Part shown: positions 2,634-21,571 of the stretch, in pieces | Position numbering within the stretch: the stretch's first letter is position 1 | Layout: each line of letters begins with the position of its first letter | From: Actinomycetes bacterium | GTDB lineage: Bacteria > Actinomycetota > Acidimicrobiia > Acidimicrobiales > RAAP-2 | Length of the DNA: 21,937 nt | Direction: 5' to 3' | NCBI GenBank assembly: GCA_021799915.1 | Contig: JAJYZN010000021.1 | Coordinates: forward strand, 1 to 21,937 | The notes under the pieces: model-generated | The model's database searches: none | The model's input: the letters and a program-made list of their open reading frames with translations, nothing else | What the model was told of the DNA's origin: nothing | Position numbers and translations under genes: made by a program

Positions 2634-2694
2634 CGCGTACCCCTCCGTTCACCGACGTCGCGAACCGTTCGCTCGCAACTGCTCGACGTCGAAC

Positions 2695-6623: not shown

Positions 6624-8260
6624 CAGTGACGCACCACGCCGAGTCGCGACGTCCCGGCCACAGGAGCCGAGTGCACGGCAGCCATGGCGACGGCCAGCAC
6701 GTCCCGGGTGCTCCGAGGGTCGATGATGCCGTCGTCCCACAGACGGCCGGTGGCGAAGAGCGCGGTGGACTCGGCGTCGATCTGGGCTTCGGTGGCAGCA
6801 GTGAGCTTGGCGTCCTCAGCCTCGTCGAACGGCCGACCGGCTGATTCGGCAGCGTTGCGCCGCACGATGGACAGCACTCCGGCAAGCTGCTTGGGGCCCA
6901 TGACAGCGATCCGGTGGTTCGGCCAGGTGAAGACGAAACGCGGCCGGTACGCTCGACCTGCCATCGCGTAGTTGCCGGCTCCGTAGCTCGCACCGATCAT
7001 CACGGTGAGGTGCGGGACAGTCGAGTTGGACACGGCATTGATGAGCTTGGCGCCGTCTTTGATGATCCCCTCCTGCTCATAGCGGGTCCCGACCATGAAC
7101 CCGGTGATGTTCTGGACGAACAGGATCGGGGTGTCGATCCGGTTGCACAAGTCGATGAACTGCGCTCCTTTGCGGGCCTCGGCCGAGAAGAGGATGCCGT
7201 TGTTGGCCACGACGCCTACCGGGTACCCCGCCAGGGTCGCCCAACCGCAGACGAGCTGCGTGCCGTAAAGCGCTTTGAACTCTTCGAACCTCGAGCCGTC
7301 GAGGATGCGCAAGAGCACTTCTCGGACATCGACGGGGACGCGCACGTCGGCGGGAGCCACGCCCATGAGCTCCTCTGGATCGCGCAAGGGGAGGTCGGGC
7401 GGGCCGGCCTGGCTCGGAGCGCTCCCCGAGCGACGCCAGTGCAGATGCGCGACGACATGCCGAGCGCGTCGTAGCGCGTCCCGCTCGTCGGCAGCCAGGT
7501 AGTCGCAGAGCCCCGAGACGCGCGCGTGCATCGCCGCTCCGCCCAGCTCTTCCTCGTCGGCATCCTCCCCGATCGCCATCTTGACCAACGGAGGCCCCCC
7601 GAGGAAGACGCGCGCCCTCCCCTCGACGAAGATCGTGTAATCGCTCATGCCTGGCAAGTAGGCGCCTCCGGCGGTGGACGACCCAAACACGACACACACC
7701 GACGGGATCCCAGCGGCAGAGAGCTGGGTGATCCGGCGGAACTGCTCCCCTCCCGGCACGAAGACGTCAGCTTGGCGCGGCAAGTCGGCGCCTCCCGACT
7801 CGACGAGCAAGACGAGAGGAAGCCGGTTGGTCTCGGCCACGTCCATCGCTCTCAGGAGCTTCTTGATCGTCGTCGGGCTCGTCGTCCCGCCGCGCACGGT
7901 GGGATCGTTGGCGACGATCAGACATTGGGTCCCTGCCACCTCTCCGATGGCGACGACCACGCCCCCTCCCAGGGGATCGTCGGTGTGGGCACCGGCCAGC
8001 GGGGAGAGCTCGAGGAGGGGGGTGCATGGGTCCACGAGGGCCTCGACGCGTTGGCGGACGAGAAGCTTGCCCCGGGCAACGTGACGAGCGACGTAACGCT
8101 CGCCACCCCCCTCGACGACCTGGCCGCACAGCGCGTCCACGTCGGACACCATCGCCTCCATCACGGCACGATTGGCGGCAAACTCCGAGCTCGCCGTGTC
8201 CAGATGGGATGCCAGGACGGTCCCCACCGGCCACGTGGCTGCGGTCGTCCGCGAACTCAT
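6623..8260 (-). CDS. Acyl-CoA carboxylase beta subunit (carboxyltransferase)
   Basis: 545 aa, the usual size for MccB/AtuC/AccD-type carboxyltransferases. The N-half has the acyl-CoA-binding crotonase-like fold with VESGGADLPRQADVF, GSSTAGGAYLPGMSDY and GPPLVKMAIGEDADEEELGG. The C-half has NNGILFSAEARKGAQFI, FVQNITGFMVG and GASYGAGNYAMAGRAY, the oxyanion-forming glycine motifs of carboxybiotin binding. It transfers CO2 from biotin on the alpha subunit to an enoyl- or acyl-CoA. The motif after the first CoA loop reads GGTTSPTTIKK where methylcrotonyl enzymes usually have YYP in place of TSP, so substrate preference may differ. The ATG overlaps the stop of the enoyl-CoA hydratase (ATGA). Position between a hydratase and the alpha subunit points to a branched/isoprenoid acyl-CoA; the exact substrate cannot be told. 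Confidence 0.92.
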   Translation of the reverse strand: MSSRTTAATWPVGTVLASHLDTASSEFAANRAVMEAMVSDVDALCGQVVEGGGERYVARHVARGKLLVRQRVEALVDPCTPLLELSPLAGAHTDDPLGGGVVVAIGEVAGTQCLIVANDPTVRGGTTSPTTIKKLLRAMDVAETNRLPLVLLVESGGADLPRQADVFVPGGEQFRRITQLSAAGIPSVCVVFGSSTAGGAYLPGMSDYTIFVEGRARVFLGGPPLVKMAIGEDADEEELGGAAMHARVSGLCDYLAADERDALRRARHVVAHLHWRRSGSAPSQAGPPDLPLRDPEELMGVAPADVRVPVDVREVLLRILDGSRFEEFKALYGTQLVCGWATLAGYPVGVVANNGILFSAEARKGAQFIDLCNRIDTPILFVQNITGFMVGTRYEQEGIIKDGAKLINAVSNSTVPHLTVMIGASYGAGNYAMAGRAYRPRFVFTWPNHRIAVMGPKQLAGVLSIVRRNAAESAGRPFDEAEDAKLTAATEAQIDAESTALFATGRLWDDGIIDPRSTRDVLAVAMAAVHSAPVAGTSRLGVVRH

Positions 8261-9282
8261 CTCGATCCTTGTCCGCCCGGCGCACCGGGCTCATGAGGGA
8301 CCGGAGCGGTCCAACCCACAGGGTGCCTCCCGGCCCACGACGGCGAGCGGTGCTCGAAGAACGCAGCCATGCCCTCGGCCGCCTCGCTTGAGCGGAAGAG
8401 CTCGTCGGAGAGGGCTTCGGCACTCGCCATCGCCGGTTCCCACTCTCGCCCGATCAAGCCTTCCACCAGGCTCTTGGTTGCCGCCATTGCCAAGGGAGAC
8501 GACTTGTGAAAGGACGCAAGCACCTCGGTGACCCATGTGTCGACGAGCCCATCCTCCACGACTGCCGAGAGCAGGCCGGCGGCCGCGGCGTCGGCGGCGG
8601 AGAACGTGTCACCGGTGAGTGCCCAGCGGACGAACGACCTGCGGTCCATGATCCGCAGGACCGGGACCGCGATCATCGCCGGCGCCACCCCCACTCGCAC
8701 CTCTTTGAAGGCGAAGGTCGCCGACGCCGGCGCGACGGCCAGGTCACACGAAGCCACGAGGCCGATGCCGCCGCCTCGCACATGCCCGTTCACCCGGGCG
8801 ACGACCGGCTGGGGCAGCTCGGCCAGGCAGGAGAGGACTTCGGCGAACGTGGCACCGCTCTCCTCGGGGCCGTCTTCAAGGTCAGGGGAACCACCCTCAC
8901 CGTCCCGCCGGAGAGCGTCCCGCCGGAGAGCGTCCCGCCGGAGAGCGTCCTGCCGGAGCCCGTCCTGCCGGAGCCCGTCCTGCCGGAGAGCGTCCTGACG
9001 GAGAGCGTCCTGACGGAGAGCGTCCTGCCGGCGTTCGCTCAGGTCGGCGCCGGAACAGAACACCTCACCGGTCCCGGTGAGGACCACGGCGCGAACGTCG
9101 GGGTCGGAGCGGGCTTCGTGAAGGGCCACGAGGAGCTCGGAGACGAGCGCAGCGGACAGGGCATTGCGATTATGGGGCGAGTCCAGGGCGACGGTCATCA
9201 CCTCTCCCATGCGCTGCACGCGCACGAGCCCCGGCCCGGACCCAGTGGCCGGGTCGGCTCTGTCGCGATCTCCGGGCGTCAC
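8257..9282 (-). CDS. Enoyl-CoA hydratase (LiuC/AtuE-like) with RQDAL repeat insertion
   Basis: 341 aa from a GTG. Crotonase fold: VALDSPHNRNAL (CoA-binding strand), FCSGADL (first oxyanion glycine region, about 75-81), NGHVRGGGIGLVASCDLAVA (about 166-185) and FAFKEVRVGVAPAM (about 190-203). One catalytic Glu is kept (E194, equivalent to Glu164 of rat hydratase), while the Glu144 position is Gly. That GGxGLVAxCD...EVRxG pattern is the one seen in methylglutaconyl- and isohexenylglutaconyl-type hydratases. Directly after GADLSER come nine pentapeptides of the form RQDAL/RRDAL/RQDGL (about 85-127), followed by an acidic linker, which lengthens the protein from ~265 to 341 aa. The GTG is chosen because TACACT lies 8 nt upstream; the frame is open further up, and an ATG at residue 25 (RM-GEV) is the fallback. 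First gene of the operon. Confidence 0.9.
   Translation of the reverse strand: MTPGDRDRADPATGSGPGLVRVQRMGEVMTVALDSPHNRNALSAALVSELLVALHEARSDPDVRAVVLTGTGEVFCSGADLSERRQDALRQDALRQDALRQDGLRQDGLRQDALRRDALRRDALRRDGEGGSPDLEDGPEESGATFAEVLSCLAELPQPVVARVNGHVRGGGIGLVASCDLAVAPASATFAFKEVRVGVAPAMIAVPVLRIMDRRSFVRWALTGDTFSAADAAAAGLLSAVVEDGLVDTWVTEVLASFHKSSPLAMAATKSLVEGLIGREWEPAMASAEALSDELFRSSEAAEGMAAFFEHRSPSWAGRHPVGWTAPVPHEPGAPGGQGSR
8901..9035. repeat. 15-bp tandem array, nine units, in frame within the hydratase gene
   Basis: Nine consecutive 15-bp units begin at 8901, 8916, 8931, 8946, 8961, 8976, 8991, 9006 and 9021. The + strand consensus is CGTCCTGCCGGAGAG with one to three substitutions per unit (CCG/CTG/CTGACG variants, GAGCC in two units). 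The last unit is degenerate at its end. The minus-strand reading is the pentapeptide RQDAL/RRDAL. The unit length keeps the reading frame, and substitutions are partly clustered, with neighbouring units sharing variants, as expected of slippage or unequal crossover. Confidence 0.95.
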
Positions 9283-9290
9283 GGCATCGC

Positions 9291-9296
9291 AGTGTA
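9291..9296 (-). promoter_or_regulatory. Predicted -10 of a leaderless promoter for the hydratase-carboxylase operon
   Basis: On the minus strand TACACT is followed by 8 nt and then the GTG at 9282. A transcript starting about 7 nt after the -10 would begin at or near the start codon, and no Shine-Dalgarno sequence is seen. No convincing -35 is visible. Confidence 0.45.
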
Positions 9297-9335
9297 GGCG
9301 TGCGAGCGCCGGCAGCCCGCTGGCGGGGAGGGTGG

Positions 9336-9341
9336 TACGTT
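9336..9341 (+). promoter_or_regulatory. Predicted -10 of a leaderless promoter for the acyl-CoA dehydrogenase
   Basis: TACGTT lies 6 nt before the ATG at 9348. A GGGGAGGG at 9325-9332 is 15 nt from the ATG, too far for a normal ribosome site, and would lie upstream of the expected transcript start. The two divergent -10 elements of this 65-bp region lie about 40 bp apart, so both promoters would share control sequence. Confidence 0.45.
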
Positions 9342-9347
9342 GCGCCA

Positions 9348-10496
9348 ATGATCGAGACCGAGGAGCATCGGCTGTTCCGCGCCTCACTCCGCGAACTGTT
9401 CGCGCGAGAGATCGGACCGAACATCGACCAGTGGGAGCAGGCCGGGACGTTCCCTGCCCACGACCTCTTCCCGAAGCTCGCCGCGGTGGGCCTGCTCGGC
9501 TTGGAGTACGACGAGGCGTACGGCGGCATGGGCGCCGACCACTCGTTCACCGTGGTCGCCGGGGAAGAGATGGGGAAGGTCGACTGCGCGGGCGTGCCGA
9601 TGGCCATCGCCGTCCAGATGGCCATGGCCACCCCGGCCCTCCACCGTTATGGCTCCGAGGAGCTCAAATCCAAGTACCTGGCTCCGGCGATCCGAGGCGA
9701 GATGGTGGCGTCGATCGCGGTGACCGAGGCCGACGCCGGAAGCGACGTCGCCGGCATCCGGACGCGTGCGGTGCGTGACGGCGACGAGTGGGTCATCAAC
9801 GGGTCGAAGCTCTACATCACCAACGGCACCCAGGCCGACTGGCTGTGCCTGCTGGCCCGCACCGGCGACGGCGACGGCCACCGCGACATGTCGCTCATCG
9901 TGGTGCCCACTTCACTGCCCGGTGTAGAAGTCTCTCGCAAACTGGAGAAGCTGGGCACGTGGTCGAGCGACACGGCCGAGCTCTCCTTCAGCGACGTGCG
10001 GGTGCCGGTCGACCACACCATCGGCGAGATCGGGCGGGGGTTCCAGCAGCAGATGGTGCAATTCCAGGCCGAACGGCTCATCACCGTCTACCGCCATATC
10101 GGCTCCATCGGCCAGGCGCTCGAACGGACCCGCAGGTATCTGGGTGAGCGTCAGGCGTTCGGCCGCCCACTCCTGGCAAACCAGCACATCGGGTTCACGT
10201 TGGCCGAGCTGGCGGCGCGCCACGACATGCTGCGCCACTATGCCTACGCTGCTGCGGCCGCCGTCCAGCGGGGAGAGGACGCCACCCGCTTCGCCACCAT
10301 CGCCAAGCTCATGGGTGCCCGGCTCCAGCGGGAGGTTGCCGATGCATGCCTCCAGTTCCACGGCGGCATGGGCTACATGGCCGAGCACTGGACGTCGCGC
10401 TTCTACCGTGACGCCCGCCTGGACTCGATCGGCGCAGGAGCCGACGAAGTGATGCTGCGGATCCTCGCCCGGATGGACGGCTTCACCGCCGAGTAG
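9348..10496 (+). CDS. Acyl-CoA dehydrogenase (FAD), possible AtuD/FadE type
   Basis: 382 aa, standard length. N-terminal helical domain 1-120, beta domain with ASIAVTEADAGSDVAG (about 121-136) and YITNGTQADW, and a C-terminal helical domain with RQAFGRPL (about 268-275) and QFHGGMGYMAEHW (about 336-348). It oxidises an acyl-CoA to the 2-enoyl-CoA, passing electrons through FAD to ETF. The Glu found in medium-chain enzymes near the C-terminus (YEGT) is replaced by GAGAD. Instead E242 in FQAERL sits where isovaleryl-CoA-type enzymes place their base, which fits a branched-chain substrate. The gene diverges from the hydratase-carboxylase operon and would supply its enoyl-CoA substrate. ATG 9348 is preferred over an in-frame ATG at 9300 because family similarity starts at IETEEHRLFR and a -10 element lies between them. 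Confidence 0.93.
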   Translation: MIETEEHRLFRASLRELFAREIGPNIDQWEQAGTFPAHDLFPKLAAVGLLGLEYDEAYGGMGADHSFTVVAGEEMGKVDCAGVPMAIAVQMAMATPALHRYGSEELKSKYLAPAIRGEMVASIAVTEADAGSDVAGIRTRAVRDGDEWVINGSKLYITNGTQADWLCLLARTGDGDGHRDMSLIVVPTSLPGVEVSRKLEKLGTWSSDTAELSFSDVRVPVDHTIGEIGRGFQQQMVQFQAERLITVYRHIGSIGQALERTRRYLGERQAFGRPLLANQHIGFTLAELAARHDMLRHYAYAAAAAVQRGEDATRFATIAKLMGARLQREVADACLQFHGGMGYMAEHWTSRFYRDARLDSIGAGADEVMLRILARMDGFTAE

Positions 10497-10537
10497 CGAT
10501 CGCGCCCGCCCGCCGAAGTCGGCGCACGCCTCTCAAG

Positions 10538-10858
10538 TCAGCCGAGCGGGAGCTGGGGGGCCTCGGCGAAGGATGGGGACGTGGGGTTGCCGGCACGACG
10601 GCGCCCGGGAGGGAACACCTGCTCGGGGCGGAAGGATCGAGTGTTGCGGTCGCCGGGGCGACCGCCGACGACCTCGACCCACACCTCACCGGTCTTCGTG
10701 TTGCGGACGAACGCCGAGAACGACCAGGAGGCGGACCGCAGCCGGGTGCCCGTCACCATCACCGGGTCGCCGGCCCGCAAGCCCGCCCAGGTCACGGAGC
10801 GCTCCAAATGTGCCGGAGAGGCAGGCACGTCGAGCTTGGCTGGTCGAGTACGCGGCAT
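10538..10858 (-). CDS. Small conserved-looking hypothetical protein
   Basis: 106 aa, family not recognised with certainty. The core (about 25-82) reads like a small all-beta domain: LRAGDPVMVTGTRLRSASWSF, then FVRNTKTGEVWVEVVGG and RSFRPEQVF. The spacing of GDPV...V.G...F.A.V.N..TGE.WVEV..G resembles an SH3-like barrel found in short actinobacterial proteins. The N-terminus is basic and the C-terminal 20 residues are Pro/Arg-rich. Cysteine is absent and no membrane segment is seen. It converges with the acyl-CoA dehydrogenase (41-bp gap) and diverges from the RecB-like gene. Codon use (G/C at third positions) agrees with a real gene; a long frame on the opposite strand is its shadow. Confidence 0.65.
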   Translation of the reverse strand: MPRTRPAKLDVPASPAHLERSVTWAGLRAGDPVMVTGTRLRSASWSFSAFVRNTKTGEVWVEVVGGRPGDRNTRSFRPEQVFPPGRRRAGNPTSPSFAEAPQLPLG

Positions 10859-10966
10859 CGCTGCCCCATTCTCTACCAGGAAGACGACGATGCTCGGATC
10901 ACGTCACCGCTCGGGCGCGAGCAGGAATGACAGGACCCAGTCGCACTCTTGGCCCGGCGGTGGTCC

Positions 10967-10972
10967 TACCCT
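10967..10972 (+). promoter_or_regulatory. Predicted -10 of a leaderless promoter for the RecB-like gene
   Basis: TACCCT lies 7 nt before the ATG at 10980 and there is no Shine-Dalgarno sequence in between. This supports ATG 10980 as the true start in a frame that is open much further upstream. Confidence 0.45.
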
Positions 10973-10979
10973 GTGGCTG

Positions 10980-11774
10980 ATGCCGTTCGCCCCGCCCAGG
11001 TCGCTCTCGCCTTCCAAGGTGTCGGCGTTCACCGACTGCCCGCTCGCATTCAGGCTGTCGGTGATCGACCGCCTCCCCGAGCCGCCATCGCCGGCCGCGG
11101 TGAAAGGGACGCTGGTCCACGCGGCCCTCGAACGGCTCATCTGGAACCACCCGCCAGGTGGCCGCACGCTCGACACGGCCCGTCACGAACTGGACGCAGC
11201 CTGGGCAGCGCTGGGAGACCAGCCCGATTTCCTCCTCCTGGGACTGTCCGACACAGACGCCGAGTCGTTCAGGGCAGATGCCGCGGTGCTGATCGAGAGC
11301 TACTTCACACTGGAGGACCCCAATGGGGTCGACGCGCTCGGAGTCGAGCTGGGGATGGAGGTCCAGATCGGCCAGATGCGCCTGCGAGGAGTGATCGACC
11401 GCCTCGACCGCGGAGCGACAGGAGAGCTGGTCGTCATCGACTACAAGACCGGACGGTCTCCTTCCGCGCGTTTCGAGCAGGCACGTCTCGGGGGTGTCCA
11501 TATCTACGCCCTGCTCTGCCGTCACCTGCTCGGACGAGCCCCGGCGGAGGTCCGGCTGCTGTACCTGCGAGACCGGGTGACCATCGTCGCGAAGCCAAGC
11601 GACCAGTCGGTACAAGGGCAGATCGGTCGCACCACCGCGGTCTGGTCGGCCATCGAGCGAGCATGCTCGCACGAGGACTTCCGTCCTCGTCGCTCTCCGC
11701 TCTGCCGCTTCTGTCACTTTCAAGATCTCTGCCCCCAGTTCGGCGGCCAACCACCAGCCGGTCCGCGAATTTGA
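10980..11774 (+). CDS. RecB-family / Cas4-like PD-(D/E)XK nuclease with four Fe-S-type cysteines
   Basis: 264 aa. It starts SPSKVSAFTDCPLAFRL (C20). The nuclease signature follows: GTLVHAALER (H47), RLRGVIDRLDR (D140) and VIDYKTG (D154, K156), then a C-terminal cluster LCRFCHFQDLC (C242, C245, C251). One N-terminal plus three C-terminal cysteines is the arrangement that holds a 4Fe-4S cluster in AddB and Cas4. The protein should bind and cut single-stranded DNA ends, but has no helicase domain. No CRISPR array or cas gene is nearby, so a role in DNA repair is more likely than adaptation. Similar stand-alone proteins occur widely in Actinobacteria. Its stop overlaps a TTG that begins the PAP2 gene. 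Confidence 0.85.
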   Translation: MPFAPPRSLSPSKVSAFTDCPLAFRLSVIDRLPEPPSPAAVKGTLVHAALERLIWNHPPGGRTLDTARHELDAAWAALGDQPDFLLLGLSDTDAESFRADAAVLIESYFTLEDPNGVDALGVELGMEVQIGQMRLRGVIDRLDRGATGELVVIDYKTGRSPSARFEQARLGGVHIYALLCRHLLGRAPAEVRLLYLRDRVTIVAKPSDQSVQGQIGRTTAVWSAIERACSHEDFRPRRSPLCRFCHFQDLCPQFGGQPPAGPRI

Positions 11775-12340
11775 CGACCGCCGACTTCGATCGCGCCGTC
11801 GACATTGCCCTGGAACGATGGCGACGCCCCGGTACTGCGACGGCTCTGGCAGCCCTCATGTCCGGCGTCTCGGACTACGGGTTCGTCTGGTTTGTCCTCA
11901 CGCTGGTCAAGGCTCGCCGGCCCGGCCCTGACCGGCGCCGGGCTCTCCAGGCCCTGGCCCTGACCGGAGTCGTGTCAGCCGTCTCGAACGCTCTTCTCAA
12001 GCAGGCGGTGGGCCGGGACCGCCCCGAGCCGACGGGGGCCGAGCGTGCGAGCGACGCACCGCAGACGTCCATCCCGGTTCGGCGTCCCAGGACGAGCAGC
12101 TTTCCGAGCGGTCACACCCTGGCCTCGTTCTGCACCGCCACCGCGCTCGCGACCGGTCCTGGCGAGCTCTCCGCCTACCTGGGCCTCGCGGGTGCAGTGG
12201 CGATCAGCCGCGTCCACCTTCGCGCCCACCATGCCAGCGATGTCGTGGGCGGCGCGCTGATCGGCACCGCTCTCGGCTGCAGCTGCCGCCTCGTGCTCGG
12301 CAGGGTCGGCAGGGTCGGCAGGGTCGGCAGGTCCCAGTGA
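11771..12340 (+). CDS. PAP2-superfamily phosphatase (membrane)
   Basis: 189 aa from a TTG overlapping the RecB-like stop (TTGA). All three phosphatase motifs are present: K77-x6-RP (KQAVGRDRP), PSGH at 112-115, and SR-x5-H-x3-D at 146-157 (SRVHLRAHHASD). Hydrophobic segments flank the motifs, so this is a membrane enzyme that probably dephosphorylates a lipid or isoprenoid phosphate on the outer face. Family members begin with FDRAVD..LERWR about 25 residues before the first membrane segment; that peptide is present here, which is why the TTG is preferred to the ATG at residue 30. The C-terminus ends in GRVGRVGRVGRSQ, made by a 9-bp tandem repeat. The start codon is the least certain point. 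Confidence 0.83.
   Translation: MTTADFDRAVDIALERWRRPGTATALAALMSGVSDYGFVWFVLTLVKARRPGPDRRRALQALALTGVVSAVSNALLKQAVGRDRPEPTGAERASDAPQTSIPVRRPRTSSFPSGHTLASFCTATALATGPGELSAYLGLAGAVAISRVHLRAHHASDVVGGALIGTALGCSCRLVLGRVGRVGRVGRSQ
12299..12332. repeat. 9-bp tandem repeat at the 3' end of the PAP2 gene
   Basis: Three perfect copies of GGCAGGGTC (12299, 12308, 12317) plus a partial fourth that diverges into the last codons. It encodes the tripeptide repeat GRV at the extreme C-terminus, after the last catalytic motif. Confidence 0.9.
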
Positions 12341-12422
12341 TGACCGTCACGTACCCCGCGGGCAGCGACGGCCGGCTCGATCGGGCAGGGAATAGACCAC
12401 CGCTGCTCGTGGTTCCAGAACC

Positions 12423-13034
12423 GTGACGCAAACGACTCCATCATTCGCTGTGACCTGGGACTACCTGTGCCCGTTCGCCCGTAACGTCCACGAGCACCTC
12501 GTGGCCGGGCTCGGAGCAGGGGCGCAGTGGGATGTGACGTTCACCCCCTTTTCCCTGGTCCAGGCCCACGTGGCCGAAGGCGACCCTCCGGTGTGGGACG
12601 CGCCCGACGGCGCCACGGGTCTCCTGGCGCTCCAGACCGGGATCGCGGTGCGCGACCGGTTCCCCGACGTGTTCCCCGCCGTGCACCGGTCGCTCTTCGC
12701 CGCCCGGCACGACCACGCACGCGACCTCAACGACCGCGACGTCATCCGCGACGTGCTCTCGGCGTGCGGCGCAGACCCCGACGCCGTGCTCGGTGAGGTT
12801 GCCGAGGGATGGCCGCTCCAAGAGCTGCGACGGGCCCACGAGGATGCGGTGTCCCGCCTCGAGGTCTTCGGCGTACCGACCTTCATCGTCGGCGACCAGG
12901 CAGTCTTCGTACGGGTGATGACCCGCCCCGGCGACGACGGCGTCGCGGCCCGCTCGACCATCGACCACGTGCTCGCGCTGATCTCGGGCCACCCTGAGCT
13001 CAACGAGTTCAAGCACACGACCGTCCCGCGCTGA
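12423..13034 (+). CDS. DsbA-family thioredoxin-fold protein (FrnE/2-hydroxychromene-carboxylate-isomerase-like)
   Basis: 203 aa from a GTG; an in-frame TAG at 12393 leaves no earlier usable start. The N-terminus FAVTWDYLCPFARNVHEHL has the DsbA-like strand-helix with one cysteine (C16-P-F-A), so it is not a dithiol oxidase. An all-helical insertion (about 55-125) follows, and then FGVPTFIVGDQAVFV with the cis-proline of the thioredoxin fold. Such single-Cys proteins include glutathione- or mycothiol-linked isomerases and dehalogenase/reductase-like enzymes. The reaction is not evident. There is no signal peptide, so it is cytoplasmic. It lies 82 bp after the PAP2 gene; a short dyad GGTTC-CA-GAACC sits right before the GTG. 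It converges with the luciferase-like gene. Confidence 0.82.
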   Translation: MTQTTPSFAVTWDYLCPFARNVHEHLVAGLGAGAQWDVTFTPFSLVQAHVAEGDPPVWDAPDGATGLLALQTGIAVRDRFPDVFPAVHRSLFAARHDHARDLNDRDVIRDVLSACGADPDAVLGEVAEGWPLQELRRAHEDAVSRLEVFGVPTFIVGDQAVFVRVMTRPGDDGVAARSTIDHVLALISGHPELNEFKHTTVPR

Positions 13035-13107
13035 GGCAGCCGTCCTCTGGCGCTGGACACGCTCGACGACAAAGGGCCACCGGGGTCTCCGGCGTCACGG
13101 CCGTGCG

Positions 13108-13121
13108 CCGTCGCGCGACGG
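13108..13121. terminator. Possible short hairpin between convergent genes
   Basis: CCGTCGCGCGACGG is a perfect palindrome (5-bp stem, GCGC loop) in the 122-bp gap between the convergent DsbA-family and luciferase-like genes. There is no T-run, so intrinsic termination is uncertain. Nothing else was recognised in this gap. Confidence 0.25.
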
Positions 13122-13156
13122 TCCGGCGAGCGGGCTCGGCTCTCCCCTGTTTCCGG

Positions 13157-14065
13157 CTATCCCGCAGCCAAGGACGCCAGGACGTCCATCGTCTCGGCGC
13201 GCTCGTCGCTGCTACCCACCACCGACGCCACGAAGTCGGTCGCACCGGCCTCGGCGAGGCGTGACATACCGGCGGCAACCTCATCGGCCGTGCCAATGAT
13301 GGCCACGTCCGACGGACCCGACGCACCTTCACGGTCCAGCATTGCCCGATAGGACGGCAACGTCGGGTAGATGGCGAACGCCTGGTCGATGCGCTCGCGG
13401 GCCCGATCCGGGTCCGACGTGACGGTCACGGGCAGCGATACCCCGATGCGTGGTTCGGGGCGTCCGGCCTCTCGGGCCGCCTCGCCGATGGTGGGCACGA
13501 TGTGCTCGGCAACGGTCCGCACTCCCGTCATCCACGTCACCGTCCCTGTCGCCACTCTCCCGGCCAGCTTCAGCATCACGGGCCCCAACGCCGCGACGAG
13601 CAACCCGGGCGGTTCGGCACCGGGGACTTCCAACGGTCCGTAGGTGACCGCCGTGACCACCTCCCCGCGGGCATCGACCGTCTCGCCCCGGAGCATGGGC
13701 ACCAACGCGGCCAGGTACTCGCGCATGTACCGTGCCGGACGCTCGTAGCTCATCCCCCACAACCCTTCGACCACGACCTGATGGGACATCCCGATCCCGA
13801 GCGTCAACCTGTTGCCGGAGGCCGCCTGCACCGTCAGCGCCTGCTGTGCCATCACCTGCGGGTGCCGGCTGTACACCGGGACGACCCCGGTCCCGAGACC
13901 GATGCCGGGCACTTGCGCCCCCACCGCCGCCAGCATCGTGAGAGCGTCGTAGCCGAAGATCTGCACAGCCCAGGCCGACGCGAACCCTCGGCGCGCCAGT
14001 GTCCCTACGTGATCGACCACCTCGGCCAGCGGCTTGTCGATGTCGATCAGTGCCCCGATACGCAT
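13157..14065 (-). CDS. LLM-class (luciferase-like) oxidoreductase, probably F420-dependent
   Basis: 302 aa, a TIM-barrel flavin/F420 enzyme. Recognisable pieces are MRIGALIDIDKPL, GIGLGTGVVPVYSRHPQVMA (about 54-73), GNRLTLGIGMSHQVVVE (about 85-101), YERPARYMREYL and a C-terminal GTADEVAAGMSRLAEAGATDF. The GMSHQ and PA.YMREYL combination is typical of actinobacterial F420-linked members. It would reduce or oxidise a small substrate with hydride from F420H2 in the cytoplasm; the substrate is unknown. ATG 14065 is supported by GAGAGGAG 7 nt upstream; the frame continues upstream only through tandem repeat DNA. The gene stands alone and diverges from purK. Confidence 0.88.
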   Translation of the reverse strand: MRIGALIDIDKPLAEVVDHVGTLARRGFASAWAVQIFGYDALTMLAAVGAQVPGIGLGTGVVPVYSRHPQVMAQQALTVQAASGNRLTLGIGMSHQVVVEGLWGMSYERPARYMREYLAALVPMLRGETVDARGEVVTAVTYGPLEVPGAEPPGLLVAALGPVMLKLAGRVATGTVTWMTGVRTVAEHIVPTIGEAAREAGRPEPRIGVSLPVTVTSDPDRARERIDQAFAIYPTLPSYRAMLDREGASGPSDVAIIGTADEVAAGMSRLAEAGATDFVASVVGSSDERAETMDVLASLAAG

Positions 14066-14106
14066 TCGCGATCTCCTCTCGTCACCTGTCTGCCAGGTGG
14101 CCCCAG

Positions 14107-14250
14107 TCCCGGCAGCGGTCGGGTCCGGCAGCTCTCCGGTCCGGCAGCTCTCCGGTGTGGCAGCGGACAGGTCCGGCAGCTGTCCGGTGTGGCAGCGGAC
14201 GGGTCCGGCAGCTCTCCGGTGTGGCAGCACTCCAATGCGGCAGCGGTCGG
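14107..14250. repeat. 16-bp tandem array, nine units, between divergent genes
   Basis: GGCAGC recurs exactly every 16 bases at 14111, 14127, 14143, 14159, 14175, 14191, 14207, 14223 and 14239. Units alternate mainly between GTCCGGCAGCTCTCCG and GTGTGGCAGCGGACAG-like forms, giving a partial 32-bp higher order and short dyads (GTCCG...CGGAC). The array fills most of the 212-bp region between the luciferase-like start (14065) and purK (14278), ending 14 bp before the purK -10. A 16-bp period cannot keep a reading frame, in line with a noncoding location. Confidence 0.95.
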
Positions 14251-14264
14251 GCAAGCAGGAACGA

Positions 14265-14270
14265 TAACCT
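14265..14270 (+). promoter_or_regulatory. Predicted -10 of a leaderless promoter for purKE
   Basis: TAACCT lies 7 nt before the GTG at 14278. No Shine-Dalgarno sequence is present. This decides for GTG 14278 over the GTG at 14290. Confidence 0.45.
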
Positions 14271-14277
14271 GCCCGAC

Positions 14278-15876
14278 GTGTCCCGCCCTGTGGAGGCTAG
14301 CGGAGGTGGTGGCCGGCCACCATGGGTCGTAGGCATCGCGGGAGCCGGTCAGCTCGCCCGGATGCTGTGTGAAGCTGCGAGCGAGCTGGATATCGGCACG
14401 GTCGTGCTCGCGGAGCACGACGACGACGCCGCCTGCGACGTCGCCCGGCAGGTCATCATCGGCACGCCTCGGTCCCGAGCCGACCTCGCTGCGCTCGCCA
14501 GCGCGTGCGACGTGCTCACGTTCGACCACGAACTGGTTGACCTGGACGCTCTCGAGGAGCTCGTGCGCGAGGGAGTGGTCGTTCGCCCAGGGCCGGCTGC
14601 GCTCGAGCTGGCCGCGGACAAAGCCCGCATGCGTAGCCGTTTCACCGCCGCCGGGCTCGACGTGCCCGTGTACGCCGTGCTCGGCACGGATGGCTTTGGG
14701 GGCACGGGAGGTAGGGAGGGCGGAAGTGGCACCGGAGGCGCGAATGGGGGTGCCCGGGAGGATGCCCGAGGGGGTGCCCGGGAGGATGCCCGAGGGGGTG
14801 CCCGGGAGGATCCCTCGGAGGGTGCCCTCCAAGGCGTTGTCCGATTTGGCGCTGCCCACGGCTGGCCGCTCGTCTTGAAAGCTGCTCGGGGCGGCTACGA
14901 CGGCCGCGGCGTGTGGGTCGTCGAGAACGAGAGCCAGGCCGCTCGAGTGTGCACCGAAGCATCGGAGGCCGGTCTGTCGCTCCTCGTCGAAGAGATGGTC
15001 CCGATCGCGGCCGAGATGGCCGTCGTCCTGGCCCGACGGCCCGGTGGAGAGATGGCCGTGTGGCCCATGGTCGAGACCGTGCAACAGGACGGCATGTGCC
15101 GAGAGGTGCACTACCCCGGGCACCTCGGCACGGACGTCGCTCTCGAAGCGGAGCGGGTTGCCCGCCGGATTGCCGACGTCACCGGCGTCGTCGGCGTGCT
15201 TGCCGTCGAGCTGTTCTGGACCGGTCACGCGCTCATCGTGAACGAGATTGCCGTGCGACCGCACAACACCGGGCATTGGACGATCGAGGGGGCCGTGACG
15301 TCGCAGTTTGAAAACCATCTCCGGGCCATCCTCGACCTTCCCCTCGGCTCGACCCGACCGACCGCCCCGGTCGTCGCCAGCGTCAACATCGTCGGATCGA
15401 CCGTCGATCCTGCCCGGGACCCTGGTTCGCTGCTCCCCGCGGCTCTTGGGGTGGAAGGTGCCCACGTCCACCTGTACGGCAAGCGAGCCCGCCCCGGGAG
15501 GAAGCTGGGGCACGTGACGGTGTGCGGCACCTACGGGAGCGGCGCATCAGCCACATCAGGCACATCAGCCGGATCAGTCGCATCAGTCGCATCAGTCGCA
15601 TCAGCCGCATCAGCCGCATCGGGCATATCAGCCGCATCGGGCACATCAGCCGGATCAGCCGCATCAGCCGGATCAGCCGCCGAAGCTGGGGCCCGTGGCA
15701 CAGACGTGCGCTCCCGCGCATGGGCGGCGGCCGAAGCGCTCGGCACCCCGGGCCTGTCCGCCACCCCGTCAGGGGTACGTAGGGGCCTCGAACCACTCGG
15801 CGACACCACCGACCCGGACGATGTCGCGGCCGAACCCAGCCGGCGGGTCACCGCCGACCATGGAGCCCTGACGTGA
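14278..15876 (+). CDS. purK: N5-carboxyaminoimidazole ribonucleotide synthase (PurK) with two repeat insertions
   Basis: 532 aa, against about 360-400 for the family. It converts AIR, ATP and bicarbonate to N5-CAIR in purine synthesis. The ATP-grasp core is intact: [13 protein letters not shown] (about 18-30), [17 protein letters not shown] (about 197-213), [14 protein letters not shown] and [18 protein letters not shown] (about 322-339), [18 protein letters not shown]. Two low-complexity additions explain the length. One is a Gly/Ala/Arg/Glu/Asp loop (about 139-187) between AVLGT and the [12 protein letters not shown] helix. The other is a Ser/Ala/Gly tract (about 422-470) between GHVTVCG and the final helix ([12 protein letters not shown]), followed by a ~45-residue tail. 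Both insertions avoid the catalytic blocks. The stop overlaps purE (GTGA). Confidence 0.92.
14751..14815. repeat. 24-bp tandem repeat in purK (first insertion)
   Basis: The octamer TGCCCGGG recurs at 14751, 14775 and 14799, giving two full 24-bp units and a partial third. Each unit has an internal 12-bp half-repeat (GCCCGGGAGGAT / GCCCGAGGGGGT). It encodes GAREDARG copies. A Gly/Gly/Thr-rich stretch (14695-14750) precedes it. Confidence 0.93.
15544..15678. repeat. 9-bp tandem array, about fifteen units, in purK (second insertion)
   Basis: Fifteen 9-bp units of the form GCATCAGCC, with variants such as ACATCAGGC, GGATCAGTC and GCATCGGGC, run from 15544 to 15678 without a phase break. They encode an Ala-Ser-x / Gly-Ser-x tripeptide repeat. 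The core ATCAG is kept in nearly all units, and variants are clustered. Confidence 0.95.
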
Positions 15877-16376
15877 CCCCCGCCACCCCCAGCCACCCGC
15901 GCCAAAAGCCGTCCCCCCTAGTCGCCGTGGTCATGGGCAGCTCTTCGGACCTGCCGGTCATGCAGGGCGCCGTCGACGTCCTGGAGCAGTTCTCGGTCCC
16001 TCACGAAGTGCGCATCGTGTCGGCCCACCGGACCCCCGACGACATGCTGGCCTACGGCCACGCAGCCGCCGGCCGTGGCCTACGCGTGATCATCGCCGGG
16101 GCGGGCGGGGCAGCCCACCTGCCGGGGATGCTGGCATCGGCCACGACCCTGCCGGTCGTCGGAGTGCCCGTCGCACTGGCCAACTTGGGCGGTCTGGACT
16201 CGCTTCTCTCCATCGTGCAGATGCCGAGAGGGGTGCCGGTGGCGACGGTCGCGGTGAACGGCGCGGCCAACGCCGCCCTCCTGGCCACCCGCATCCTGGG
16301 CGTGTCAGACCCCGCACTGGCCACAGCGATGGCCGCCTACCAGGCCGAGCTGGCCGAGCAGTCCCGCCGGCAATGA
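15873..16376 (+). CDS. purE: N5-CAIR mutase, PurE class I
   Basis: 167 aa, normal length. It moves the carboxyl group of N5-CAIR to C4 giving CAIR, the step after PurK. Motifs are [11 protein letters not shown] (about 21-31), [27 protein letters not shown] and LPVVGVPV, with [21 protein letters not shown] downstream, the complete class I active-site set. The start GTG overlaps the purK stop as GTGA, so the two are translated together. The N-terminal ~14 residues (Pro/Ser-rich) are an extension before the first strand. Confidence 0.96.
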
Positions 16377-16384
16377 GGTGTGAC

Positions 16385-16423
16385 GAGGTGAGGTGAGGTG
16401 AGGTGAGGTGAGGTGAGGTGAGG
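16385..16423. repeat. 5-bp tandem array (GAGGT) after purE
   Basis: Seven uninterrupted GAGGT units (16385-16419) plus GAGG, with one more isolated copy at 16375 overlapping the purE stop. It fills the upstream half of the 100-bp gap before the YdjC-like gene and ends about 40 bp before that gene's -10. The repeat is purine/GT-rich on the + strand and resembles multiple Shine-Dalgarno cores, but it is too far from the next start to act as one. Confidence 0.95.
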
Positions 16424-16464
16424 GGCGGGCCGGGCACCTACCGGCGAGCGGGCTGACGGGGCGC

Positions 16465-16470
16465 TACCGT
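16465..16470 (+). promoter_or_regulatory. Predicted -10 of a leaderless promoter for the YdjC-like gene
   Basis: TACCGT lies 6 nt before the ATG at 16477. The CGGAGC between them contains a weak GGAG only 2-3 nt from the ATG, too close for a normal ribosome site. Confidence 0.4.
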
Positions 16471-16476
16471 CGGAGC

Positions 16477-17313
16477 ATGCCATCGCTGGTCGAACGCCTG
16501 GGCCACCCCCGAGACGCCAAGCTGCTCATCGTCAACGCCGACGATCTGGGCTTCTGCCATTCCGCCAACGTCGCCGTCTACGAGTGCCTGCGCACCGGGC
16601 TGGTCACGAGCGCCACGCTGATGGTCCCCTGCCCCTGGTCTCGCGAAGCCGCGTCGCGGTACCGGGGTGAGGACGTGGGGGTGCACCTCACCCTGAACGC
16701 CGAGTGGGACCTGTACCGCTGGGGTCCGGTCACCCATGCCCCGTCGCTCGTCGGAGGCGACGGCGGGTTCCCCCGGACGGTCGAGGACGTGTGGGAGCAC
16801 GCTGATCTCGATGAGGTCCGGCGCGAGTGCCGCGCCCAGATCGAGCGGGCCATCCTGTGGGGCTTCGACGTGAGCCACATCGACTCGCACATGGGGACGC
16901 TCCAGATCCGTCCCGAGTTCTTCGACGTCTACGTGGACCTGGCCGTCGAGTTCAGCCTGCCGCTTCGAATGGTCGGGCCCGGGCTCGACGACCTCCTCGG
17001 CTTCCCCGCCCGTCAGGTGGCCCAAGACGCCGGTGCGGTCTTTGTCGACGAGCTTGCGATCGTGCCCGGGGTCGGCAGCCGCCAGGTGATCGAGGACCAC
17101 TTGGCGGCACTCCGTCCCGGGGTGACCGAGATCTTCCTCCACCCGGCCGTCGACAGCCCCGAGCTGCGCGCCATCGCCCCGGATTGGGAGGCCCGGGTCG
17201 ACGACCACGCGATGGTGTGCCGAGACGGGTTCTTGGAGCGAGCCGTCCGGGATGCCGGCGCCACGCTCGTCGGCTACCGGGCACTGCGGGGCTTGGCCCG
17301 GGACAGCAGTTGA
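16477..17313 (+). CDS. YdjC/ChbG-family carbohydrate deacetylase
   Basis: 278 aa. The family signature is clear: LLIVNADDLGFCHSANVAV (D22/D23 of the metal site), DVGVHLTLNAEWD (H70) and VSHIDSHMGTLQI (H134, H138). Members remove an N-acetyl group from chito-oligosaccharides or other acetylated sugars using a divalent metal. There is no signal peptide, so it acts in the cytoplasm. The C-terminal part (VTEIFLHPAVDSPELRAI and ALVGYRAL-like end) is also family-typical. The gene is monocistronic at its 5' end and its stop overlaps the TTG of the next gene, so the deacetylase and the membrane protein may work together. The natural substrate cannot be read from sequence. Confidence 0.9.
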   Translation: MPSLVERLGHPRDAKLLIVNADDLGFCHSANVAVYECLRTGLVTSATLMVPCPWSREAASRYRGEDVGVHLTLNAEWDLYRWGPVTHAPSLVGGDGGFPRTVEDVWEHADLDEVRRECRAQIERAILWGFDVSHIDSHMGTLQIRPEFFDVYVDLAVEFSLPLRMVGPGLDDLLGFPARQVAQDAGAVFVDELAIVPGVGSRQVIEDHLAALRPGVTEIFLHPAVDSPELRAIAPDWEARVDDHAMVCRDGFLERAVRDAGATLVGYRALRGLARDSS

Positions 17314-18071
17314 GCACAGCAGGTCCACGTCTGCGGTTCAGCGGGGCCGTCTTTCTCCCCGCCGACCCGGGCACTCGCCCTGTCCAAGGGCTCGAGCTCG
17401 TGTTCGACCAGCATGCCGTGCTCGTCAGGTCCGTCGGGTCCGTCACGTCCGGCTCATCCGAGCCGTTTGCGACTGCGGGCACTCCCGGCACTCCCGGCAC
17501 TGCGGGCACTCCCGGCACTCCCGGCACTGCGGGCACTCCCGGCACGTCCGACCCGAAGACCGTGCCCTGGTGCGACGTCACCGGCTGGAGAGTCGACCCC
17601 TACACGCTCGCGGGCCGAGAGGGTGCGGCCGTGACGTTGCAAACCGCCGGGCGCGTGCTCCACTTCGCCATCCCCGGTGGCGATCCCGGCACGATCGAGC
17701 GTGCGTTGCGCGAGCTCGCCGAGCGCCGTCACGCCTCACCGGAGCACGCTGATCAGGGTGAAGCCGAGCCGGCTCCCATCACATCGGCTCCAGCGGACTC
17801 GCCGGACGCGCCACAGGCCGATGCGACGGCCGTTCGAGCCGCAGGCACACCGGATGCAGCGGACGCGCCACAGGCCGGTGCGACAGGGGTGCCGACGACG
17901 CGTGCACCCGGCGGCTCTTTCGCTCGGTGGCAGCCGATCCTCGTGGTGCTCCTCGTGCTGTTCCTTGCGACCGCCGTCTCGCTCGTCCTGGCGCAGAGCG
18001 CCGGTGCCATCCACCTGTCCTGGCTCGGGGGTTTCGGCTCGTCGAGCACGGTGCCAACTCCGGGCGGCTGA
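17310..18071 (+). CDS. Unrecognised single-pass membrane protein with collagen-like and Ala/Pro-rich segments
   Basis: 253 aa from a TTG overlapping the YdjC-like stop (TTGA). Four parts are visible. A beta-rich start (about 1-50; RLRFSGAVFLPAD, GLELVFDQHAVLVRSVG) continues after the repeat with VPWCDVTGWRVDPYTLAG, AAVTLQTAGRVLHFAIPGG and a helix IERALRELAERR, which together resemble a small PH-like domain split by an insertion. The insertion (about 55-79) is a run of Gly-Thr-Pro/Gly-Thr-Ala triplets. Next comes a disordered Ala/Pro/Asp region (about 145-200) with a 19-residue duplication. Last is one membrane helix (about 209-232; ILVVLLVLFLATAVSLVLA) and a short tail, giving a tail-anchored layout with the PH-like part in the cytoplasm. 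I do not recognise the family; the start codon is inferred from coupling. Confidence 0.68.
   Translation: MSTAGPRLRFSGAVFLPADPGTRPVQGLELVFDQHAVLVRSVGSVTSGSSEPFATAGTPGTPGTAGTPGTPGTAGTPGTSDPKTVPWCDVTGWRVDPYTLAGREGAAVTLQTAGRVLHFAIPGGDPGTIERALRELAERRHASPEHADQGEAEPAPITSAPADSPDAPQADATAVRAAGTPDAADAPQAGATGVPTTRAPGGSFARWQPILVVLLVLFLATAVSLVLAQSAGAIHLSWLGGFGSSSTVPTPGG
17472..17543. repeat. 9-bp / 27-bp tandem array encoding Gly-Thr-x triplets
   Basis: Eight 9-bp units, ACTCCCGGC or ACTGCGGGC, follow each other from 17472. The order is G-variant, C, C, G-variant, C, C, G-variant, C, so there is a 27-bp higher-order unit. The peptide has Gly at every third position (GTPGTPGTA), the collagen-like pattern. 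Confidence 0.95.
17804..17884. repeat. 57-bp period direct repeat in the membrane-protein gene
   Basis: A 24-bp stretch at 17804-17827 recurs at 17861-17884 with one mismatch. The 57-bp spacing equals 19 codons. Both copies read DAPQA(D/G)AT in the Ala/Pro-rich linker before the membrane helix. Confidence 0.85.
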
Positions 18072-18087
18072 TCCGCGGGCGGGAGCT

Positions 18088-18107
18088 GGAGCTCGAGTGA
18101 GAGCTCC
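18088..18107. terminator. Inverted repeat between convergent genes
   Basis: GGAGCTC and GAGCTCC pair perfectly as a 7-bp stem around a 6-nt loop (GAGTGA), in the 48-bp gap between the convergent membrane-protein and mca genes. It lacks a T-run, common in high-GC actinobacteria, and could serve both strands. Confidence 0.45.
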
Positions 18108-18119
18108 GAGCTGGAGCAG

Positions 18120-18977
18120 TCAATCGATCCCGGAGAACAGGTCGTCCTCGGTCACGTCGGTCCCCCCCACCCGGCTCCGGGCGAGCAGGAAGTCGTCGAA
18201 CGGGTGCAGACCGCGCTGCACCTCGGGGGGGAGCCCGAACCAGAACGGCGACGTGGGATCGACCTGGGTCGCGTGGGCCTTGAGCGCCTCTGCGCGCACG
18301 TCCTCGAAGCCCGTGAGGTCGATCGAGGTCGAGATGGGGTCGTCCCGGCGAAGGCGAGCCAGCCACTTCTCGTCGAAGGGCGAGGGGAGCCCCAGCTCGA
18401 GGAACTTCTCGTGCATGGCCCGCATCCGCTGGCGCGGCCACATCGTGTAGTACAGCTTGAGCGGGGCAAACGGCGGTCCAGCCTGAGGGAACCTGTCGGC
18501 ATCTCCCGCGGCCTCCCAGGCCGCCATCGAGATCTCGTGCACCCGGAGGTGATCGGGGTGCGGGTACTCGGACTGCTCTTCGGCATAGGTGATCACGACC
18601 TGCGGTCTGACGCGGCGGATCACCGCCACCAGGCGCTCGACCGCCTCGTCGGTCTCGGCCCGGGCAAAGCTCGCAGGGTTGTCGTTGGCCTCCGACCCAG
18701 GCATGCCCGAGTCGCGGTAGCCGAGCATCACGACCTCGTCGTACCCGATGATCGCCGCCGAGCGCTGCAGCTCCTCTCGGCGGACCTCGGGGAGCCGGCG
18801 CCGGACGTCGGGGGTGTCCATGGCCGGGTTGAGGATGTCGCCTTCCTCGCCGCCGGTACAGCACACGAGGACCGTGCGAACGCCCTCGGCGTGGCAGCGG
18901 GCGACCGTCCCCGCTCCCTTGGACGCCTCGTCGTCGGGATGGGCATGGACGGTGAGCAGGCAGCGGGGCTCGGGCAT
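18120..18977 (-). CDS. mca: Mycothiol S-conjugate amidase
   Basis: 285 aa, the usual length for Mca. It has the LmbE/PIG-L zinc-hydrolase fold: HAHPDDEASKGAGT (H13, D16 as metal ligands), CTGGEEGDILNPAMD (about 40-54), LGYRDSGMPGS and EQSEYPHPDHLRVHEIS with H140/H143. Mca cleaves mycothiol S-conjugates to GlcN-Ins and a mercapturic acid, in detoxification. MshB, the related GlcNAc-Ins deacetylase, is the main alternative. The EILNPAMD-like loop, the YPHPDHLRVHE stretch, the following AAWEAAGDADRFP.AG and the C-terminal ~100 residues are Mca-like. Mycothiol is essentially restricted to Actinobacteria, which supports the taxonomic call. The gene is monocistronic and diverges from pspA (113-bp gap). 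Confidence 0.88.
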   Translation of the reverse strand: MPEPRCLLTVHAHPDDEASKGAGTVARCHAEGVRTVLVCCTGGEEGDILNPAMDTPDVRRRLPEVRREELQRSAAIIGYDEVVMLGYRDSGMPGSEANDNPASFARAETDEAVERLVAVIRRVRPQVVITYAEEQSEYPHPDHLRVHEISMAAWEAAGDADRFPQAGPPFAPLKLYYTMWPRQRMRAMHEKFLELGLPSPFDEKWLARLRRDDPISTSIDLTGFEDVRAEALKAHATQVDPTSPFWFGLPPEVQRGLHPFDDFLLARSRVGGTDVTEDDLFSGID

Positions 18978-18984
18978 CGCAGCG

Positions 18985-18990
18985 AGGCTA
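18985..18990 (-). promoter_or_regulatory. Predicted -10 of a leaderless promoter for mca
   Basis: On the minus strand TAGCCT is followed by 7 nt and the ATG at 18977. There is no Shine-Dalgarno sequence in the gap. Confidence 0.45.
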
Positions 18991-19075
18991 GCGGGGCGGA
19001 GAAGAGGGCATGGCCAGGGGCGTGCCCCCTCGCGCTGTTGTGGGCCTTATGCTCTCCCCAGGGGATAACCGCCTC

Positions 19076-19083
19076 AAGGAGGG
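19076..19083 (+). promoter_or_regulatory. Strong ribosome binding site of pspA
   Basis: AAGGAGGG ends 7 nt before the GTG at 19091, the clearest Shine-Dalgarno sequence of the window. It shows this gene has a leader, unlike the leaderless-type genes around it. A TATGCT at 19048-19053 is a possible -10, without a clear -35. Confidence 0.7.
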
Positions 19084-19090
19084 CTGAAGC

Positions 19091-19900
19091 GTGCCGGGGT
19101 TGTGGCAGCGGACCAAGAACATTTTCCAGGCGAAAGCGAACAAGGTCCTCGACAGGGCCGAGGACCCGCGTGAGACCCTCGACCTGTCCTACGAGAAGCA
19201 GATCGAGAGCCTCCAGAAAGTGCGGCGCAGCGTCGCCGACGTCGCGACCGCCCGCAAGCGCATCGAGCTTCAGGCGGCCCAGCTCCAGAAGCAGGCAGAC
19301 AAGCTCCAGGGCCAGGCCAAGGCGGCCCTCGCCCAGGGCAACGAGGACCTGGCGCGCGAGGCACTGTCACGTCGGGCCGCGTTGGGCGAGCAGCTCGCCG
19401 ACCTCAAGACCCAGCACGACCAGGTCTCCGAGCAAGAGGAAAAACTGGTGGAGACCTCCCAGCGCCTGCAGGCTCAAGTCGAGCAGTTCCGGACCCGCAA
19501 GGAGACGCTGAAAGCCAGCTACACCGCGGCCGAAGCCCAGACCAAGGTAGGCGAGGCGGTGTCGGGCATCTCGACGTCCATGGGCGACGCCGGCGCCACG
19601 ATGCAGCGGGCCCAGGACAAGATCGCCGCCATGCAGGCGCGGGCCGGGGCGATCGACGAGCTGCTCGCCTCGGGTGCCCTCAACGACCTCAACACCCCCG
19701 TCGACGACATCCAGGCCCAGCTCGACAAAGTGGCCTCGACGTCGCAGGTCGATAACGAGCTCGCGGCGATGAAAGCCGAGCTGGGCGCGGCCGGACCGGC
19801 GGGCGAGCTCGGCTCGTCGGGCGCAGAGACCGACGGGGAGGTCAAGGACGCCGAGGTGGTGCCCGGACCCGAGGGAGACAGCGGAGGGAGCGCGAGCTGA
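19091..19900 (+). CDS. pspA: PspA/IM30-family membrane-stress protein
   Basis: 269 aa. Nearly the whole protein is charged heptad-rich helix, as in PspA/Vipp1. The N-terminal amphipathic helix (LWQRTKNIFQAKANKVLDRAED) is followed by the conserved ETLDLSYEKQIESLQKVRRSVADV (about 29-52, not continuous identity) and long coiled coils to about residue 190. A ~40-residue Gly/Glu/Asp/Ser-rich tail ends it. The protein polymerises on damaged membranes and protects them. Start GTG is fixed by AAGGAGGG. Its stop overlaps the htpX ATG as TGATG. The cluster pspA-htpX-pspAB is a known actinobacterial arrangement; no PspAA, PspC or ClgR gene is seen in the window. Confidence 0.92.
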   Translation: MPGLWQRTKNIFQAKANKVLDRAEDPRETLDLSYEKQIESLQKVRRSVADVATARKRIELQAAQLQKQADKLQGQAKAALAQGNEDLAREALSRRAALGEQLADLKTQHDQVSEQEEKLVETSQRLQAQVEQFRTRKETLKASYTAAEAQTKVGEAVSGISTSMGDAGATMQRAQDKIAAMQARAGAIDELLASGALNDLNTPVDDIQAQLDKVASTSQVDNELAAMKAELGAAGPAGELGSSGAETDGEVKDAEVVPGPEGDSGGSAS

Positions 19901-20841: not shown

Positions 20842-20896
20842 GAGTGGCCGGCGTCACCACCGGCCGGTGGAGCTGCCGCGGGGAGCCTCGCTGAGG

Positions 20897-21559: not shown

Positions 21560-21571
21560 GCCCGACCACCA

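Follow-up and report, generated by a model that had tools for sequence, protein, structure and literature searches.

Unrelated tandem arrays in and between ordinary enzyme genes of an actinobacterial contig

We analysed a stretch of 21,937 nucleotides from an actinobacterial metagenome contig (accession # JAJYZN010000021.1, assembly GCA_021799915.1), hereafter the window. It carries tandem arrays in a crotonase (enoyl-CoA hydratase/isomerase) gene, a PAP2-family gene, purK, and a small open reading frame (ORF), as well as in two intergenic spacers. These arrays are probably unrelated, lineage-private minisatellites that grew locally, were filtered by selection, and are unusually frequent in some lineages. 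Each array would have started as a chance tandem duplication and would have grown by the addition of blocks of one or more units; we infer that this occurred through replication slippage or unequal crossover, and that the arrays are nearly neutral. Selection would retain the arrays that do little harm: in genes, these would be located in variable loops, linkers, and tails and have periods that preserve the frame, whereas the period would not matter between genes. Within this actinobacterial clade, several lineages, including that of the window, would make or keep many more arrays than others. The phenomenon is ordinary in kind.

Tandem arrays in the window

Tandem Repeats Finder (TRF), at a score of at least 70, detected seven arrays between positions 8901 and 17545 (Table 1). 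The five located in genes have periods of 15, 9, 24, 9, and 27 bp and preserve the reading frame; the two located between genes have periods of 16 and 5 bp, as the original prediction, made from the sequence alone, had stated. That prediction counted eight arrays within 9 kb. The eighth, with a period of 57 bp, is absent from the TRF list even at a score of 30; however, at lag 57 50 of its 95 bases match, versus 22-32 at lags 50-56 and 58-64, and we therefore regard it as a real but diverged two-copy duplication. Pfam matches bear out the expectation that the hosts are ordinary enzymes for crotonase, PAP2, and PurK, whereas the fourth host is an ORF without a family.

Table 1. Arrays in the window and the genes that contain them.
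Feature	Position	Strand	Evidence and location
Crotonase (enoyl-CoA hydratase/isomerase) gene	8257-9225	-	Pfam ECH_1, 3e-46, on the 8257-9387 ORF
15-bp array x 8.7	8901-9031	-	TRF score 199; crotonase gene
PAP2-family gene, array in C-terminal tail	11771-12340	+	Pfam PAP2, 1.6e-19
9-bp array x 3.9, perfect copies	12297-12331	+	TRF; PAP2-family gene, close to C-terminus
16-bp array x 8.8, 32/48/64-bp higher order	14109-14248	.	TRF; divergent spacer between luciferase-like gene and purK
purK, two repeat-filled insertions	14278-15876	+	Three PurK-type Pfam domains; alignment with 13 relatives
24-bp array x 3.4, two diverged 12-bp subunits, (GGAREDAR)n	14746-14827	+	TRF; purK
9-bp array x 15.3	15543-15680	+	TRF; purK, VCG / VR turn of C-terminal domain
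5-bp TGAGG array x 10	16374-16423	.	TRF; purE-ydjC spacer, start within purE stop codon
Small ORF, 9/27-bp array, hydrophobic C-terminal stretch	17310-18071	+	No Pfam family at E<=0.001
27-bp array x 2.7, identical copies of three 9-bp subunits	17472-17545	+	TRF; ORF without Pfam family
57-bp diverged two-copy duplication	17790-17884	+	Lag comparison

The head-to-tail copies of short units exceed what is expected by chance, which places the arrays among minisatellites of the variable number tandem repeat (VNTR) type. In 200 codon-shuffled windows, the mean number of TRF rows with a score of at least 50 was 0.19, compared to 13 observed, and only 2 of the 200 contained a row with a score of at least 70. 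Because the shuffled windows were nearly free of arrays, chance is excluded as their source. The remainder of the window (1-8900 and 17546-21937) contained no TRF array scoring at least 50. Comparing the unit lists by eye revealed that the units at separate sites are unrelated; a single dispersed repeat family is thus ruled out, and the predicted recurrent local expansion is upheld.

Three of the arrays exhibit nested periodicity. The agreement between positions increases from 0.71 at a lag of 12 bp to 0.91 at 24 bp in the 24-bp array, from 0.85 at 9 bp to 1.0 at 27 bp in the 27-bp array, and from 0.73 at 16 bp to 0.81 at 32 bp in the 16-bp array. This pattern suggests that units diverged first and that multi-unit blocks were duplicated later, and is consistent with existing arrays having been extended by slippage or unequal crossover.

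It is very improbable that the arrays are artefacts of the assembly of a metagenome contig. Most of them contain imperfect copies and are set in unique sequence, and similar arrays are found across independent relatives. Weak further support comes from the crotonase cluster P0121, which comprises four sequences on two contigs and of which the representative alone was seen.

Array sites compared between relatives

A search with PurK returned relatives among bins with the labels Actinomycetes, Acidimicrobiaceae, or Acidimicrobiales. Of the genomes found, isolate FK2.bin96 (G001, locus L001) is the nearest, with 62% PurK identity in this search. The gene order crotonase, acyl-CoA dehydrogenase, PDDEXK, PAP2, DsbA, luciferase-like, purK, purE, ydjC, ORF is conserved at this locus. 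The proteins are 89% (acyl-CoA dehydrogenase), 89% (YdjC), 83% (luciferase-like), 83% (PurE), 77% (PDDEXK), and 70% (DsbA) identical to those of the window. The four array-bearing genes have the four lowest identities, with 65% for crotonase, 63% for PAP2, 58% for PurK, and 38% for the ORF, although the array-free DsbA is little higher.

No array of the window was found in G001 when the syntenic block was compared. At the site of the 27-bp array, the ORF of G001 has a short turn; its PAP2 tail is shorter, its crotonase harbors a non-repeated insert at the array site, and its luciferase-like/purK and purE-ydjC spacers are without the 16-bp and 5-bp arrays. G001 has private arrays of its own, including one of 17 bp x 4.4 in the spacer between the acyl-CoA dehydrogenase and PDDEXK genes and one of 18 bp x 2.2 in PurK. 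In a further relative (G007), purE ends in a 30-bp coding array where the window has the 5-bp noncoding array.

The alignment of 14 PurK proteins (from the window and 13 relatives) contains three hypervariable places. The first separates the preATP-grasp domain from the ATP-grasp domain. It is occupied by GGAREDAR repeats in the window and by GAAHD repeats in G018, whereas G001 has a Ser/Thr/Ala repeat there; in database relatives it holds GGVGG repeats (P0034) or AEVT repeats (P0083). In the second, G013 and G056 carry GST repeats. The third is a turn of the C-terminal domain that contains the 9-bp array in the window and is short in the other 13 proteins. The syntenic purK locus provides a natural series in which one enzyme of the purine pathway carries unrelated repeats at a few shared sites across species, giving a direct view of selection filtering raw repeat growth.

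AlphaFold predicted a confident core for the PurK of the window. The 9-bp array corresponds to residues about 422-468, with a predicted local distance difference test score (pLDDT) below 50 over residues 424-460. The 24-bp array corresponds to residues 157-184, with pLDDT below 50 at 157-166 only. Low values were also obtained in much of the low-complexity stretch from residue 140 and in the tail (497-532). In this model, most of the 9-bp array looks disordered-like, as does the first third of the 24-bp array.

The 15-bp array of the crotonase encodes (QDALR)n/(RDALR)n after the motif FCSGADLSER; it is missing from 14 aligned homologues (P0122-P0135), and the site after FCSGADLxER holds other repeats in crotonases P0152 and P0156. 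The start of this gene at 9225 was set by a simple gene caller, and the ORF is open to 9387. The array in the PAP2 tail is missing from all nine aligned relatives. The small ORF next to ydjC, whose repeat gave a Collagen match below the cut-off, has its 38% identical orthologue at the equivalent place in G001. A diverged counterpart of this ORF at locus L003 has a different linker repeat (AEVAEV...).

These comparisons bear on whether the arrays could be adaptive length modulators, with the number of units tuning the output of an enzyme or promoter. Two of the arrays are located upstream of genes, in intergenic spacers, in-frame units would permit graded change, and mycobacterial promoter repeats provide a precedent in the portion of PMC12817950 available to us. 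However, the arrays of the window are neither conserved in G001 nor seen in 6 crotonases, 9 PAP2, and 13 PurK proteins that were aligned, and both units and sites differ between species. We consider this explanation quite unlikely, and favor private arrays tolerated at variable sites.

Reading frame, unit number, and array density

In 24 genome samples from relatives (the window was left out of the totals), the period was divisible by three in 162 of 169 coding arrays but in only 53 of 104 noncoding arrays (Fisher p=9e-19). This agrees with the prediction that periods within genes are multiples of three and that frame-breaking expansions are purged. Genes were called with our own simple gene caller, which misplaces starts, and 22 arrays at gene boundaries were set aside. 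Noncoding DNA harbored 104 of the 273 classified arrays (0.38), above its share of 0.13, a value that is an assumed mean. Since arrays are found in both coding and noncoding DNA and those in coding DNA are biased for frame, expansion takes place in both and is apparently filtered in genes. These data lend good support to local expansion with filtering for frame. The pooled test is independent of the division into array-rich and array-poor genomes described below; it includes two genomes (G071 and G096) that were left out of the NucS density comparison.

A change in unit number was detected between two sister genomes. Over 3,756 aligned bases, the purK loci of G013 and G056 show 99.44% identity; they differ by 12 mismatches and a single gap, which corresponds to one 9-bp unit of the PurK GST array. 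In the pair G005/G046 (94.2% identity), which has no array at this locus, all 10 gaps are single-base.

Array density was calculated from arrays with a score of at least 50, a period of at most 60 bp, and at least 2.5 copies. By this measure the window has 28 bp/kb. Among 17 samples in which NucS was not found, seven were array-rich (G001, 8.7; G018, 9.4; G003, 11.3; G007, 14.8; G050, 10.5; G056, 24.2; and G063, 15.5 bp/kb), and the other ten, with 0-3.0 bp/kb, were array-poor; the five NucS-positive samples had 3.2-8.6 bp/kb. The designations rich and poor were set after the densities had been seen, and the group HIGH in the frame count also included G013. The number of arrays per 10 kb in the 17 samples lies between 0 and 2.5, a variation beyond that of a Poisson process (chi-square 65.8, 16 df, p=5.5e-8). 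The array-rich genomes are scattered over the phylogeny, which was built from PurK alone and has a midpoint root that serves only for display. The samples comprised 33-364 kb per genome, with contigs picked by number and some chosen for purK; the order-3 Markov null for density rests on one simulation per genome, and late samples of G042 and G025 were left out. Single density values are rough, because the sisters G013 and G056 gave 1.9 and 24 bp/kb from small samples. Six single loci (L009-L011 and L014-L016) were measured besides, and five of these were free of arrays. Density is raised in several relatives, in line with the original prediction; weak mismatch correction, which it offered as one possible cause, is unsupported, as detailed below.

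Several observations weigh against locally grown arrays that selection confines to harmless, frame-preserving sites. The proportion of noncoding periods divisible by three is above one third; this excess probably stems in part from missed gene starts, and the 27-bp coding array of the window was itself misfiled as noncoding by the simple gene caller. Unit number changed in only one of two array-bearing sister pairs: between G063 and G042 (95.7% identity), a 15-bp array is unchanged and all 4 gaps are single-base. The change that was detected comes from relatives, not from strains of the species represented by the window. Few of the listed homologues have a repeat at the protein level, which by our own criterion could be located at any point of the chain: 5 of 120 for PurK and 5 of 120 for crotonase, with the crotonase of the window among the latter five. 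The PurK listing omitted the protein of the window (532 aa). Part of the PurK 24-bp array is modelled with fair confidence, the block mean rising to 77 after residue 166 and a helix beginning at residue 179. In the crotonase, the array (residues 66-109) falls largely in a continuous helix predicted for residues 62-104 with block means of 65-84; according to this model the array would lengthen a helix and would not form a floppy loop. The proposal that expansion is used to grow loops holds as an outcome only.

Similar arrays are described in other prokaryotes, to judge from the portions of the publications available to us. The prokaryotic satellites and minisatellites of PMC6749651 likewise comprise many local arrays of unique sequence, with periods that are mostly multiples of three and large differences between species. 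The arrays of the window differ from these in belonging to an actinobacterial clade, in residing in ordinary enzymes, and in having orthologues that reveal turnover at shared sites. A rough imitation of the criteria of that paper, uncalibrated on its genomes and applied to small samples, gave 24-134 arrays per Mb for six array-rich samples and 0 for the seventh (G050), compared to 0-39 in the ten array-poor and 13-25 in the five NucS-positive samples. Mycobacterial VNTRs (PMC12817950) are also actinobacterial repeats that change in unit number and have an in-frame bias within genes. However, they are located in pe/ppe families and promoters, whereas the hosts in the window are crotonase, PAP2, PurK, and an ORF without a family; furthermore, the searched relatives of the window are mostly without NucS. 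In Bacillus (PMC8161180), arrays are species-specific and differ in sequence, but 66% of the repeats there have one of two constant lengths (20-21 and 51-53), whereas lengths vary in the window. Judged by titles and the beginnings of abstracts, a literature search for tandem repeats in Acidimicrobi- returned nothing on arrays of this kind.

Mismatch-repair genes and array density

The original prediction assumed that this lineage relies on NucS for mismatch correction. The relatives contradict this assumption: NucS was not found in 36 of the 42 searched, the nearest ones included, with the control matching in 7 of 14 reference genomes. The group of the PurK tree that holds the window (28 rows) contains 27 searched genomes, none of them with NucS; nine further NucS-negative genomes are located outside this group. 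MutL had no match above the cut-off in any of the 42 relatives, and weak partial matches in 21. MutS_V was without a match in 32 of the 42, including G001 and G018. In the other ten (best E 8e-22), nine had two matches about 1.5 kb apart. One such pair of ORFs was examined (L196, G050:C84:27001-31500; 945-2957 and 2501-4060, minus strand), and these neighboring ORFs score far under the MutS1 and MutS2 cut-offs. The absence of NucS and MutL is not due to incomplete bins, because xseA matched in 30 of 30 genomes (29 above the cut-off).

Taken together, these absences favor an explanation in which a lack of mismatch repair gives rise to the arrays: without MutS/MutL and NucS, slippage would go uncorrected and repeats would accumulate. 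The distribution of densities, however, argues against it. NucS is missing from array-rich and array-poor lineages alike, and its loss is therefore rejected as a sufficient cause; the NucS-positive samples (n=5) do not differ from the NucS-negative ones (n=17), with medians of 0.64 and 0.56 arrays per 10 kb, respectively (p=0.81). MutS_V matches were found in 3 of 7 array-rich and 2 of 10 array-poor samples (p=0.59). In addition, units of 9-64 bp are larger than mismatch repair usually handles. Missing mismatch repair alone is no explanation for the difference between lineages, and we regard it as an unlikely origin of the arrays. Selection-filtered local growth that is stronger in some lineages remains our preferred reading.

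The part of PMC8228993 available to us reports that NucS is unable to correct indels, which also speaks against missing repair as the cause. PMC5290159, likewise seen in part, describes some actinobacteria that lack both mismatch-repair routes and the presence of NucS in Ilumatobacter coccineus, a member of the Acidimicrobiia class; it was the only publication found in a search for NucS together with Acidimicrobiia.

Other repair genes were considered as the source of the difference between array-rich and array-poor genomes. Loss of RecJ was rejected, as its model TIGR00644 was unmatched in all 30 genomes, with the control matching in 13 of 14; loss of xseA was rejected given its matches in all 30. 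Ku matched in 21 of 30 genomes. Searches for it gave no match in 4 of the 7 array-rich samples (G001, G050, G056, and G063) versus 1 of 10 array-poor NucS-negative samples (Fisher p=0.10). Ku is rarer in the array-rich samples, the opposite of what is expected of a driver, and Ku-type end joining was therefore rejected in that role. The association between Ku absence and density is too weak to claim, but provides a lead.

A clade in which NucS and MutL are not found and density varies strongly would allow the loss of repair and the growth of repeats to be separated. A bolder scenario, which we consider a long shot, is that this Acidimicrobiia-like clade lost every known mismatch-repair route and that a further change in some lineages drives array growth throughout the genome; the loops of PurK and other core enzymes would then be continually re-invented in frame, supplying real functional diversity.

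No RNA family in the window scored above its gathering score. Beside the crotonase and acyl-CoA dehydrogenase genes, genes for AtuA, biotin carboxylase, and carboxyl transferase occupy positions 2695-8260; this set resembles what we take to be a cluster for the breakdown of acyclic terpenes or branched acyl-CoA. At positions 19091-21559, genes for PspA/IM30, an M48 peptidase, and PspAB occur in a row, presumably an envelope-stress-like set.

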